From Leptolyngbya sp. 'hensonii' (GTDB lineage: Bacteria > Cyanobacteriota > Cyanobacteriia > GCF-001939115): DNA of 64,000 bases. The position numbers and the translations under genes are program-made. Below the pieces are notes generated by a model. That model was not told the origin of the DNA. It made no database searches and saw nothing but the letters and a program-made list of their open reading frames with translations. Below are positions 48,838-55,543 of the stretch, piece after piece; positions within the stretch are counted from its first letter, which is position 1; every line of letters starts with the position of its first letter. Location of the stretch: contig NZ_MQTZ01000054.1 in the NCBI RefSeq assembly GCF_001939115.1, positions 1 to 64,000 of the forward strand. Reading direction: 5' to 3'.

Positions 48838-49248
48838 TTAGGAAATAGAGTCCTGGGAACGATGGCATGGCCCCATAAACTCTCGGCCCAAATAAACGCT
48901 GGAGGCATGGAAGCCCAATCCCAGTCCCCAGCCCAGTAGCGGGTAAATGGCCCAGAAGTATCTGGGTGTCGTCACTAGATTCAGCAAGATCAGAAAGGTA
49001 TTAACCAGGACGTAACTAGCCAGGTGAGACTGGAACTTGCGTTGCCGTTCTGTCCTGACATCCTGCCGCTGGTATACAATCTTCCTTTCCTGAAGCCATT
49101 CCTGCCGTGCTGCTTCCAGAGCAGTGGCCGAGATGCCCAGCTCCGATGCCATATCTTGCAACTGCTGCTCCGAAAACTCCGTATCTTGCTGGCGAGCCAT
49201 GGCCCGCTCCAGAATTTGCTGAATCTCTTCCGATCTAAAAGTAGCCAT
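48838..49248 (-). CDS. 2TM domain membrane protein
   Basis: A 136-residue protein from ATG 49248 (MATFRSEEIQQIL); an earlier GTG-type start at 49272 is unlikely. The N-terminal 60 residues contain helices and a short SHOCT-like pattern (FSEQQLQDMASELGISATALEAA) that may bind a partner. The C-terminus has two hydrophobic spans (ASYVLVNTFLILLNLV and FWAIYPLLGWGLGLGF) of the 2TM family. It is divergent from proS; a palindromic operator-like site lies in between. Confidence 0.8.
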   Translation of the reverse strand: MATFRSEEIQQILERAMARQQDTEFSEQQLQDMASELGISATALEAARQEWLQERKIVYQRQDVRTERQRKFQSHLASYVLVNTFLILLNLVTTPRYFWAIYPLLGWGLGLGFHASSVYLGREFMGPCHRSQDSIS

Positions 49249-49298
49249 TGGGGGTCCTCCTGAAATTGACACCGCTTACGCCTGGGACTGGGATAAAA

Positions 49299-49353
49299 CA
49301 TATTCAACTAAGTGAATATGTCTTTAGTTTATATGCAACTAAGTGAATATGTC
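49299..49353. promoter_or_regulatory. Operator-like palindrome with a direct-repeat copy
   Basis: CATATTCA (49299-49306), a 6-base spacer, and TGAATATG (49313-49320) form a perfect palindrome. The sequence CAACTAAGTGAATATGTC is repeated exactly at 49305-49322 and 49336-49353, 31 bases apart, about three helical turns. This suggests two protein-binding sites on one face of the DNA between the divergent 2TM gene and proS. Confidence 0.55.
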
Positions 49354-49439
49354 AACGGAATACCTCTCTCCTGGCCCCCTGGGCAACGGGATGCTCTAGA
49401 CTGGGATAGCAATTCTTCCATCGGAAAAGGAAATGAGCC

Positions 49440-51248
49440 ATGCGGCTGTCTCAGATGCTGTTTGTCACCCTGCGGGAAGTTCCGGCAGAAGCGGAAATTC
49501 CCAGCCATAAATTACTGCTGCGGGCCGGGTACATTCGGCGCATTGCCAGTGGGGTCTATGCCTATCTGCCGCTGATGTGGCGGGTGCTGCAAAAGGTATC
49601 CCAGATTGTGCGGCAGGAAATGAACGCAGCCGGGGCCCAGGAATGTCTCCTGCCCCAACTCCAGCCCGCAGAACTGTGGCAGGAGTCGGGCCGCTGGGAT
49701 ACCTACACCAAGGCTGAGGGGATTATGTTCGCCCTGAAGGACCGGCAGGAGCGGGAGATGGGACTCGGCCCCACCCATGAAGAGGTGATTACCACGATCG
49801 CCCGGGACATGGTGCGCTCCTATCGCCAGCTTCCGATTAACCTGTACCAGATTCAGACCAAGTTTCGGGATGAGATCCGGCCCCGGTTTGGGCTGATGCG
49901 GGGGCGGGAGTTCATTATGAAGGATGCCTACTCCTTTGATATGGATGAGGCCGGGATGAAACAGAACTACGAGAAAATGAACCGGGCCTACCACAACATT
50001 TTTCGGCGTTCGGGTCTGGCTTTTCGAGCTGTGGAAGCAGATTCGGGGGCGATCGGGGGTTCTGGCTCTCAGGAGTTCATGGTCCTGGCTGATGCGGGTG
50101 AGGATGAGGTGCTGTACACCGAAGACGGCCAGTACTCGGCCAATGTGGAGAAGGCCATTTCCCTCGCTCCCGATGCCACTCCTTCTCCTTTCACTACTTA
50201 CGAGAAGCGGGAGACACCGGGGACAGACACGATCGATAAGATGTGCCAGTTTCTCCAATGCTCCCCCACCCATGTGGTTAAGAATGTCCTCTACCAGGCG
50301 GTGTATGACAACGGCATGGCTGTGCTAGTTCTGATCTGTATTCGGGGCGATCAGGAGGTCAACGAGGTCAAACTGCAAAATGAACTGGTCAAACTAGCCG
50401 GACAGTACCAGGGAAAAACCGTTCTGTCGCTGAAGGTGGCGGATGCAGAATCCCAGAAGCAATGGGCCGCGAAACCCCTGCCTCTGGGCTATATTGCCCC
50501 AGACCTGAGTGACAAGTACATCCAGGCAGGTAAAAACCTAGCCGCAAAGTTCCTGCGGTTAGTGGATAAAACCGCAGTGGACCTGCAGAATTTTGCTACG
50601 GGAGCCGATGAGGCTGGATATCACGTCGTCGGGGCCAACTGGGGTCAGGCGTTCAAACTACCCTCCCTGGTGGTGGATGTACGGAAAGCAAGACCGGGCG
50701 ATCGGGCCATCCACAATCCCACTCAAACCTTGCAGAGTGCGAGGGGGATTGAGGTGGGCCACATCTTCCAGTTAGGCACCAAATATTCCAGGGCGCTGAA
50801 CGCTACCTACACCAGTGAACAAGGGGAAGAATTGCCCCTGGTAATGGGCTGCTATGGAATTGGGGTGTCCCGCTTGGCCCAGTCGGCAGTGGAACAGTCC
50901 TACGACAAGGACGGGATTATCTGGCCGGTGGCGATCGCGCCTTACCAGGTGATTGTTGTCATCCCCAACATTACGGATGCGGCCCAAGTGAAAGCCGCTG
51001 AGCAGATCTATACGGACCTGAATCAGGCTGGAATTGAAACCCTGTTGGACGATCGGGATGAGCGTCCGGGGGTCAAATTTAAAGATGCCGACCTGATCGG
51101 GATTCCTTTCCGGGTGGTGACGGGCCGATCGCTCCAGGCTGGGAAGGTCGAGGTGGTGCGTCGAGCCACCCGGGAAGCCCAGGAAATTCCCTTGACGGAG
51201 TTGACCGCCATCCTGCAACAGTGGATCATTGATGCCGCAACCCTTTAA
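49440..51248 (+). CDS. proS: Prolyl-tRNA synthetase
   Basis: Charges tRNA-Pro. The 602 residues correspond to the bacterial type with an editing insertion between motifs 2 and 3. Motif 1 region [19 protein letters not shown], motif 2 region [19 protein letters not shown] and motif 3 region [13 protein letters not shown] are intact, with GPTHEEVIT at the ATP site. The C-terminal anticodon domain has [28 protein letters not shown] 49440 has a GGAAATGAG-type site before it. It stands alone on the plus strand. Confidence 0.95.
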
Positions 51249-51857: not shown

Positions 51858-53762
51858 ATGGATTGCTTTGCCCCCCTGCATCTGGCTATGTTTAGCGGCA
51901 AAGGTGGGGTTGGAAAAACCACCCTCTCCTGTGGCTTGGCTCGTTCCTGGGCCAGACAGTTCCCGGAGCAGAAGATTCTACTGCTTTCCACTGATCCAGC
52001 CCATTCTCTGGGCGATGTACTTCAGCAAGGAGTGACGGATACAGCCAGCCCCCTGGCCGATCTGCCGAACCTGGAGGTCAGGGCTCTGGATGCCAGTAAA
52101 TTGCTGAGTGCTTTCAAGCAGCGCTATGGAGCGGTGTTAGAGTGCCTGGTCGAACGGGGTAGCTTCGTCCAGGGGGAAGATCTAACTCAGGTCTGGGATC
52201 TGGACTGGCCCGGTTTAGATGAATTGATGGGCATTCTGGAGATTCAACGCCTGTTGCTGGAGCAGATGGCCGATCGGATTGTGGTGGATATGGCTCCCAG
52301 TGGCCATACCCTGAATCTATTCGGCCTGATGGACTTTCTGGAAGGGTTCCTGGGAGCCCTCGATTTATTCCAGGAAAAGCATCGCTCCCTCAGTCTGACT
52401 TTTTCTGGCCAGTACAACCCTGATGCCGCCGATGCCTTTCTGGCCCAGATGCGATCGGAATTAACCATGGGCCGTCAGTTGTTGCAGGATAAGGCCCACA
52501 CCGCCTGTCTGGTGGTGGCGATCGCCGAGCCCATGAGTCTGCTGGAAAGCGAACGCTTTTTGACCGCCCTTGAACAACTCCAGATTCCAGTTGGGGGGCT
52601 CTTCATCAATCGGATTCTGCAGCCAGAATCCCTGGAACGGCTTTCGACTTCTGATCTCGATCGGTACAGTGAACAGCAGGACCTTCTAGAAAAATTTCTG
52701 CACCTGACCCCCTATCCAGTCTTTGTCATCCCGCAGCAGGCACAGGAACCTGTTGGACCTGTCGCCCTGGATGAAACATTTAACGAAATTCAGAGATTAA
52801 CGGAAGCTGAAGCAGTTCTCTCACCCCCTGTGGTCTGGCCTCAGCGGGTGCCACCGGGTCTGACTGATTTGATTGAGGCCGGTCGCCGCCTGGTGCTAGT
52901 CGGTGGCAAGGGTGGGGTCGGCAAAACAACTGTCGCCGCTGCCATCGCCTGGGAAATGGCGACCCGCCACCCTGATCGTCAGGTCCGGGTGATCTCGATC
53001 GACCCAGCCCATTCCCTGGGAGATGCTTTCGGACACCCCCTGGGACATGACCCGGTGGCCCTCACCCCTAATCTCACTGGACAGGAAATTGATGCGAACA
53101 CCGTTCTGGACCAGTTTCGGCAGGATTATCTGTGGGAACTGGCCGATATGATGAGCGGGGAATCCTCCGAGCAGACGGGCCCGATCCAGCTCGCCTATGG
53201 CCCTGCTGCCTGGCGGCAGATCATTGCCCAGGCCCTGCCCGGTGTGGATGAAATGTTATCTCTGCTGACGGTGATGGATTTATTGGACTGTCAGGACCAG
53301 GATCTGATCATCCTGGACACCGCGCCCACAGGTCATCTCTTACGGTTCCTGGAGATGCCAACCGCAATCAGTGACTGGCTGGCTTGGATTTTCAAACTCT
53401 GGCTCAAATATCGGGACGTTTTAGGAAATACAGATTTGATGGGCCGCCTGCGCACTCTGCGGCAGGGAGTTCTGCAAGCCCAGAAACAACTACAAAATCC
53501 CCAATGCACCGAGTTTATCCTGGTGGTACAGGCCCAGTCTCCCATTATTGCCGAGGGCCAACGCCTCTCAGCCGCCCTTCAAACCATGGGCATGGCCCAA
53601 CAGGTCTTGATTCATAATTACTTTCAGCCCGATCGGCCCATTGGGCCAGATGCCTTTCCAGGTATAGTTCGGGTCCATCTCCCTCCCTTGCCGCGATCGG
53701 TGGCTCCCCTGGCCCGGATCCAGGGAGCAGGTCCCCTCCTGTTTGAAACGTTCCATCCCTGA
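51858..53762 (+). CDS. Tandem ArsA/Get3-type ATPase
   Basis: A 634-residue protein with two complete SIMIBI-class ATPase domains in tandem. The first P-loop (FSGKGGVGKTT) is near residue 14 and the second (VGGKGGVGKTT) near 350. Each has the intradimer or DTAP-like block (LSTDPAHSLGD and ISIDPAHSLGD) and switch motifs (VDMAPSGHT and LDTAPTGHL). This layout matches ArsA, the ATPase of arsenite pumps, yet no arsB, arsC or arsR is near. It may serve tail-anchored membrane proteins like Get3 or another metalloid role; both are inference. Confidence 0.85.
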   Translation: MDCFAPLHLAMFSGKGGVGKTTLSCGLARSWARQFPEQKILLLSTDPAHSLGDVLQQGVTDTASPLADLPNLEVRALDASKLLSAFKQRYGAVLECLVERGSFVQGEDLTQVWDLDWPGLDELMGILEIQRLLLEQMADRIVVDMAPSGHTLNLFGLMDFLEGFLGALDLFQEKHRSLSLTFSGQYNPDAADAFLAQMRSELTMGRQLLQDKAHTACLVVAIAEPMSLLESERFLTALEQLQIPVGGLFINRILQPESLERLSTSDLDRYSEQQDLLEKFLHLTPYPVFVIPQQAQEPVGPVALDETFNEIQRLTEAEAVLSPPVVWPQRVPPGLTDLIEAGRRLVLVGGKGGVGKTTVAAAIAWEMATRHPDRQVRVISIDPAHSLGDAFGHPLGHDPVALTPNLTGQEIDANTVLDQFRQDYLWELADMMSGESSEQTGPIQLAYGPAAWRQIIAQALPGVDEMLSLLTVMDLLDCQDQDLIILDTAPTGHLLRFLEMPTAISDWLAWIFKLWLKYRDVLGNTDLMGRLRTLRQGVLQAQKQLQNPQCTEFILVVQAQSPIIAEGQRLSAALQTMGMAQQVLIHNYFQPDRPIGPDAFPGIVRVHLPPLPRSVAPLARIQGAGPLLFETFHP

Positions 53763-54013: not shown

Positions 54014-55543
54014 ATGGGACTACCCTGGTATCGCGTACATACTGTCGTCCTGAATGACCCGGGTCGGCTGATTGCTGTACACCTGATGCATACTGCCCTG
54101 GTGGCAGGTTGGGCCGGTTCGATGGCTCTCTACGAACTGGCAATTTTTGACCCCAGTGATCCGGTTCTGAACCCGATGTGGCGCCAGGGCATGTTCGTTC
54201 TGCCCTTCATGGCTCGCCTCGGCGTAACCGAATCCTGGGGTGGTTGGAGCATTACAGGTGAGACTGCTAGCAACCCTGGCCTCTGGTCATTTGAGGGTGT
54301 GGCTGCTACTCACATCATCCTGTCCGGCTTACTCTTCCTGGCCGCTGTCTGGCACTGGGTCTTCTGGGATCTGGAACTATTCCGCGATCCCCGGACCGGT
54401 GAACCAGCCCTCGACTTGCCGAAGATGTTCGGTATTCATCTGTTCCTGTCTGGGTTACTCTGCTTCGGCTTTGGTGCTTTCCACCTGACGGGTCTATTTG
54501 GCCCCGGCATGTGGGTGTCTGATCCCTATGGTCTGACCGGCAGTATCCAGCCTGTCGCACCAGAGTGGGGTCCTGCCGGATTTAATCCCTTTAATCCAGG
54601 CGGCATTGTTGCCCACCACATCGCTGCTGGGGTTGTTGGGATTATTGCGGGTCTCTTCCATCTGTCAGTTCGTCCTCCGGAGCGTCTCTATCGAGCGCTG
54701 CGGATGGGGAATATTGAAACGGTTCTGTCCAGCAGTATTGCAGCCGTCTTTTTCGCAGCCTTCGTTGTGGCCGGTACCATGTGGTACGGCAACGCAGCTA
54801 CCCCGATCGAACTGTTTGGCCCCACCCGCTATCAGTGGGATAAGGGATACTTCCAGCAGGAGATCGATCGTCGTGTTCAAACCAGTCTGGCGGATGGCGC
54901 ATCTCTGGCAGAAGCCTATTCGGCAATTCCTGAAAAGCTTGCCTTCTATGACTACGTTGGGAATAGCCCTGCCAAGGGGGGTCTGTTCCGGACTGGTGCG
55001 ATGAATAATGGTGACGGTATTGCTCAGACATGGCTGGGCCATCCTGTTTTCAAAGATAGTGAGGGCCGTGAACTCTTTGTTCGCCGCTTACCTAACTTCT
55101 TCGAGAACTTCCCCGTTGTTCTGACTGACAAAGATGGTATCGTCCGAGCTGACATTCCCTTCCGTCGGGCTGAGTCCAAATATAGCTTTGAGCAGCAGGG
55201 TGTAACGGTCAGTTTCTACGGTGGGGAGTTGAACGGTAAAGCGTTCGATGACCCAGCGACTGTGAAACAGTACGCCCGTAAAGCGTTGTTAGGCGAGCCC
55301 TTCGAATTCGATACAGAAACCCTTGGCTCTGACGGGGTATTCCGTACCAGTCCAAGAGGTTGGTTCACTTTCGGACACGCCTGCTTCGCCCTTCTGTTCT
55401 TTTTCGGCCATATCTGGCACGGTTCTCGGACCATCTTCCGGGATGTGTTTGCCGGGATTGATCCGGATCTGAGTGAAGAGCAAGTCGAGTTTGGTGTCTT
55501 CCAGAAACTGGGTGACAAGACCACTCGTAAAGAGGCTGTTTAA
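54014..55543 (+). CDS. psbB: Photosystem II CP47 chlorophyll-binding protein
   Basis: Core antenna protein that passes excitation energy to the photosystem II reaction centre. The 509 residues start [23 protein letters not shown]; six membrane helices carry chlorophyll-ligand histidines ([72 protein letters not shown]). The large lumenal loop between the fifth and sixth helices is complete. A strong ribosome site precedes it. psbT lies 144 bases downstream. Confidence 0.98.

Follow-up and report, generated by a model that had tools for sequence, protein, structure and literature searches.

The region between a gene for a 2TM-domain protein and the divergently oriented proS of Leptolyngbya sp. 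‘hensonii’ contains two operator-like sequences, and the question that they raise is which regulator might bind there, and with what effect on which of the two genes. The window (the whole stretch of DNA analysed, 64,000 nucleotides in length) belongs to a genome of 5.94 Mb in 77 contigs, identified as cyanobacterial by a photosystem II protein encoded at 54014-55543 (PF00421, E 5.8e-278). The 2TM gene occupies 48838-49248 on the minus strand and encodes a protein of 136 amino acids (PF13239, E 2.6e-22), with its ATG at 49248 and a likely ribosome-binding site, AGGAGG, read from the sequence at 49256-49261 on the same strand; proS, which encodes a prolyl-tRNA synthetase-like protein with tRNA-synt_2b, HGTP_anticodon and tRNA_edit domains, runs along the plus strand from 49440 to 51248. 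A 634-amino acid protein with two ArsA_ATPase stretches in a single chain is encoded at 51858-53762, in the interval separating proS from the photosystem II gene.

Both candidate operators are intergenic. The proximal one, TATTCAACTAAGTGAATA (TATTCA-ACTAAG-TGAATA; 49301-49318), is a perfect palindrome, as a preliminary description of the locus had recorded, and its symmetry reaches 3 bases beyond each end (49298-49321). The same description reported an 18-bp repeat of half of this palindrome, 31 bases away; the direct repeat, CAACTAAGTGAATATGTC, is indeed exact (copies at 49305-49322 and 49336-49353, 31 bp apart) and common to both palindromes, but the second copy marks a whole site with one change, rather than a half. 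This distal site, TATGCAACTAAGTGAATA (TATGCA-ACTAAG-TGAATA; 49332-49349), is a near-palindrome whose T-to-G change agrees with a wider consensus, TATKCA-N6-TGMATA, derived from the window promoter and a promoter on contig C12 taken together. A search of the whole genome with that consensus, of the kind proposed at the outset, yielded five exact matches, two in the window and three on C12, all of which fall in two promoter regions; searching genome-wide with the window repeat itself (up to 3 mismatches) recovered the window pair and a single site on C12, against 0 in the control.

Comparison with other genomes of the same class ties the sites to a particular family of regulators. Tandem exact pairs beginning TATTCA were found in 13/388 genomes and those beginning TATGCA in 17/376, with 0 for the reversed-pattern control in each case; the union amounts to 21 genomes, cyanobacterial and with our own included. 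Leaving that one aside, 17 of the 20 tandem genomes have a PadR-family gene whose start is 21-159 bp away from a site (measured to the centre of the latter), whilst in the three exceptions the sites stand upstream of a coq4-like gene (G282), a 2TM gene (G346) and a gene for a FAD/NAD-binding-domain protein (G008) that we take to be phytoene-desaturase-like. The expectation of a linked regulator gene is thus borne out in relatives but not in the genome under study, where the matching gene is unlinked (see below). A PadR profile matched in 21/21 tandem genomes versus 218/388 overall.

The association is also evident when approached from the regulator. The 300 bp upstream of the 30 best PadR matches contain a site with no more than one mismatch in 28 cases and an exact site in 24 (shuffles, 0.25/30 and 0.0/30 respectively; far flank, 0/30), the two loci that lack one being L115 and L116; at L121, another of the 30, the sites precede the PadR frame by 20 and 52 bp. 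Excluding the ten TATTCA-pair genomes that are among these 30 leaves 18/20 with a site, 14/20 exact. Among 20 lower-ranked PadR genes, picked by hand, ten have a site, divided by score into 7/8 at 236-260 and 3/12 at 222-230; as site frequency falls with PadR score, the operator is most characteristic of one branch of the family. At position 4 of the symmetrised half-sites, G (101) and T (47) account for the 148 examples.

In the genome of the window the PadR profile has a single match (G000:C20:73739-74269), on a contig linked neither to the window nor to the coq4-like locus on C12. The encoded protein, at 176 amino acids (about 180 is usual for the type), combines an N-terminal winged helix (PF03551, E 1.5e-15) with a C-terminal Vir_act_alpha_C domain (PF10400, E 4.5e-26), and both domains were present in 2/2 regulators tested, this one included. 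The profile was built from nine proteins, eight of which are 44-76% identical to the first seed, and matches Vibrio cholerae AphA (1YG2) over its whole length with an E-value of 5.9e-48; with the profile, rather than our own protein alone, as the query, 1YG2 ranks second of 21 PDB matches (E <=0.001), after 8IOI. The C20 PadR gene is preceded by a one-mismatch site, TATTCAACTAGTTTAATA, whose end lies about 20 bp from it, so that its promoter carries a single mismatched site and not an exact pair; this and the unlinked position of the gene speak against its assignment to the window sites. The rarity of the sites, their recurrence beside PadR genes, the likeness of the regulator to AphA and the match of the consensus to the AphA box nevertheless uphold the operator reading first put forward for the locus, and, as far as sequence comparison can tell, it is very likely that the window sites serve an AphA-type PadR regulator as operators.

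What such a regulator might do here is suggested by the arrangement of the putative 2TM promoter. Reading along the minus strand, a predicted -35 hexamer, TTGACA (49355-49350), is followed by the distal operator, which fills the 18-bp spacer exactly, and then by a predicted -10 hexamer, TAAACT (49331-49326); the proximal operator would accordingly extend over roughly the first 18 nucleotides (+1 to +18) of the 2TM transcript. Within 49200-49450 the promoter scan gave this one promoter-like site versus 0.4 in shuffles, which is weak when taken alone, and none on the plus strand; of the ‘divergent promoter region’ originally described, the divergent genes stand, but the single promoter-like site points toward 2TM. 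The same layout recurs at the coq4-like promoter on C12 (TTGACT-operator-TATATT), and of 74 distinct exact sites, 24 have a TTGACA-like hexamer (>=5/6) directly adjoining the operator (offset 0), perfect in 19, as against 10 with the hexamer at offset -1 and 0-2 for each other offset tried; these 74 sites come from the loci examined, many of which are related, and the counts are not independent. Upstream of 2TM in G346, the sites have no abutting TTGACA. Neighbouring sites are most commonly separated by 16 bp (26 pairs), or else by 26-37 bp with a peak at 32 (17 pairs). On the predicted geometry, repression of the 2TM gene is the most likely outcome.

Synthesising these observations, we propose that the window sites are tandem operators of the AphA-type PadR protein encoded on C20, and that this acts as a repressor of the 2TM gene, its likely target; we would give this reading a probability of roughly 80%. 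One dimer would occupy each 18-bp palindrome, and two dimers 31 bp apart, or about three helical turns, would face the same side of the helix and might aid each other. Cooperativity of this sort, already supposed in the preliminary description, is suggested here by the tandem spacing and by the published behaviour of AphA (PMC6855506). With the distal operator serving as the promoter spacer, and the expected start lying under the proximal one, bound repressor would keep RNA polymerase out until released by an inducer. We also envisage autoregulation by the C20 protein, and control of the coq4-like/cytochrome b561 pair.

The sign of regulation is something that we infer, given that AphA can activate as well as repress, and it is here that the first alternative arises: the same PadR protein might bind but activate 2TM, or might also control proS. 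The sites do lie in a shared, divergent intergenic region, and AphA activates some genes and represses others (PMC3440409, PMC6855506); against this, the geometry is a blocking one, with the distal site in the promoter spacer and the proximal site over the expected start, and we consider the alternative unlikely. As for proS, the missing plus-strand promoter-like site in 49200-49450 does not favour it as the main target, nor does the gene order in G346, where the neighbour of 2TM is a transaldolase gene; proS is probably a bystander.

A second possibility is that some other, non-PadR regulator uses the sites, their neighbourhood with PadR genes being coincidental or reflecting a shared motif. 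The unlinked position of our own PadR gene, the sites away from PadR in 3/20 other tandem genomes, and the existence of a second, shorter PadR-family protein in the genome (C42:307841) might all be cited in its favour; set against the 17/20 tandem loci beside AphA-type PadR genes, and a consensus that equals the AphA box, it appears to us distinctly improbable.

It remains to ask how readily such sites arise by accident. With one mismatch allowed, the window contains two instances of the TATTCA form where 0.13 would be expected. Across the genome, the full consensus with one mismatch gives 52 matches versus 13 for the reversed control, and among those listed at least nine are copies of a dispersed repeat, TATTCATCTGGGTGAAGA; the one-mismatch sites inspected on C5, C42, C43, C44, C46 and C53 are isolated, with none paired. 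The repeat itself, possibly a mobile element, is found on contigs C6, C7, C38, C42, C43, C44, C59, C65 and C66, with several copies near contig starts. That the window repeat is mere chance in an AT-rich region, or a functionless dispersed repeat of the kind that inflates the one-mismatch count, can be rejected with near certainty, in that 0/100 shuffles reached two sites, the tandem controls were 0 in 388 and 376 genomes, and the sites keep a steady place beside PadR genes from genome to genome.

Returning to the proposed repressor and its 2TM target, we asked how widely the two are associated. Homologues of 2TM are found in 236/372 genomes, and in the part of these represented by 59 other loci an exact site lies <=400 bp upstream in two (two sites in G346, one in G112; shuffles, 0.0). 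To judge from the loci read, 2TM homologues in general do not preserve the site in their upstream regions; what survives of the idea are these two loci and three more genomes in which PadR, sites and 2TM lie close together, so that the refuting condition named in the preliminary description, a lack of conservation upstream of orthologues, receives a mixed answer. Nor did inspection bring to light an alternative shared operator upstream of 2TM homologues, in the form of perfect inverted repeats with arms of 6-8 or >=7 bases. The closest homologue found (56%) is that of a Richelia MAG, where PadR comes first, followed by two exact sites, then a Monooxy_af470-like gene and finally 2TM; a syntenic Rivularia MAG lacks the PadR gene, the sites and the front of the monooxygenase-like gene. 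G042 and G067 each have, near an opposite-strand 2TM gene, a PadR gene accompanied by two sites, one exact and the other with one mismatch. One member of the G346 pair overlaps what may be a very short open frame immediately before the 2TM start (L067, 860-960). These comparisons suggest a tie between 2TM and the regulator that extends to several lineages, in a patchy manner, whilst conservation of the site is mainly at the regulator’s own promoter and at coq4.

The coq4-like locus on C12 consists of a coq4-like gene (PF05019) and then a cytochrome b561 gene (PF01292), with three exact sites upstream. A site is present within 400 bp in 23 of 24 near-full-length coq4-like orthologues (50-100% identity, our own included), and PadR adjoins the gene in 21/24; sites between PadR and coq4 enter both tallies. 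Partial orthologues (1/2) and distant homologues (0/4) carry the site less often. Near the coq4-like gene on C12 there are also two long, similar and adjoining proteins (L051, 10575-18154), each presumably with a haemagglutinin-like secretion region at the start and a CHAT-like part at the end.

Other genes found beside PadR and sites encode RPE65-type carotenoid oxygenases (L066, L126), Monooxy_af470-like and ABM-type proteins (L035, L060, L120, L122), an HlyD-type protein (L063), a MAPEG protein (L112) and a DprA-like match that falls below the family cut-off. These PadR-linked neighbours point to chemistry of a lipophilic or redox nature. In four loci (L112 2122-3565, L126 2077-3545, L124 2131-3535 and L035 2493-4441), the genes that come after that of the regulator form one and the same series: DprA-like, MAPEG and a third that we take to be YajQ-like, the first two being assigned by Pfam in L112.

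We speculate, tentatively and with more doubt than conviction, that a widespread cyanobacterial AphA-type PadR regulon guards the redox and lipid chemistry of membranes. It might take in coq4-like, cytochrome b561, carotenoid oxygenase, MAPEG and monooxygenase-like proteins, HlyD-type efflux and 2TM, and might respond to a small lipophilic inducer such as an apocarotenoid, a quinone or a phenolic compound; its 18-bp operator would double as the promoter spacer, one sequence then serving both RNA polymerase spacing and repression. More immediately, a palindrome can be treated as an operator, for which there is a named candidate regulator and a small regulon open to direct testing, and poorly understood cyanobacterial genes (2TM, coq4-like, monooxygenase-like) acquire a regulatory context. 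The findings suggest that a recognition sequence associated with quorum sensing and virulence in Vibrio is common to free-living phototrophs, where it appears tied to membrane and redox genes. The fit of operator to spacer could also serve in building repressible cyanobacterial promoters.

Control by an AphA-type PadR protein is a known kind of system, whilst in the open-access literature searched we found no description of this cyanobacterial regulon. Elsewhere, PadR is listed among transcription-factor families (PMC10775510), other pairings of PadR with small membrane domains are described (PMC11237479), and a PadR-like gene of Nostoc punctiforme, Npun_R1304, is lower in an alkane-overproducing strain (PMC7660261). 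With canonical PadR/LmrR regulators (PMC3506622) the candidate shares the PadR winged helix, and like them it may regulate its own gene, but their operator, ATGT-N8-10-ACAT, is absent from both window sites. Pex, the circadian regulator of Synechococcus elongatus (PMC3506622), is likewise a cyanobacterial PadR-like protein; its structure, 2E1N, is not among the 21 PDB matches of our regulator profile (E <=0.001).

The closest likeness is to AphA. The cyanobacterial consensus agrees with the AphA box, ATATGCA-N6-TGCATAT, whose spacing is the same, and with the ChIP-seq motif ATGCAA-N4-TTGCAT (PMC3440409 and PMC6855506 respectively); the two-domain PadR architecture is also the same, and matched by our profile throughout the 1YG2 structure. 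AphA itself is active at the promoter of its own gene as well as at paired sites (PMC3440409, PMC6855506), and binds cooperatively to adjacent sites at tfoX and cqsS (PMC6855506). It differs in belonging to Vibrio, another phylum, and in its targets, which are those of quorum sensing, virulence and competence; the putative cyanobacterial targets are instead 2TM and coq4-like and, in relatives, genes such as that for carotenoid oxygenase.
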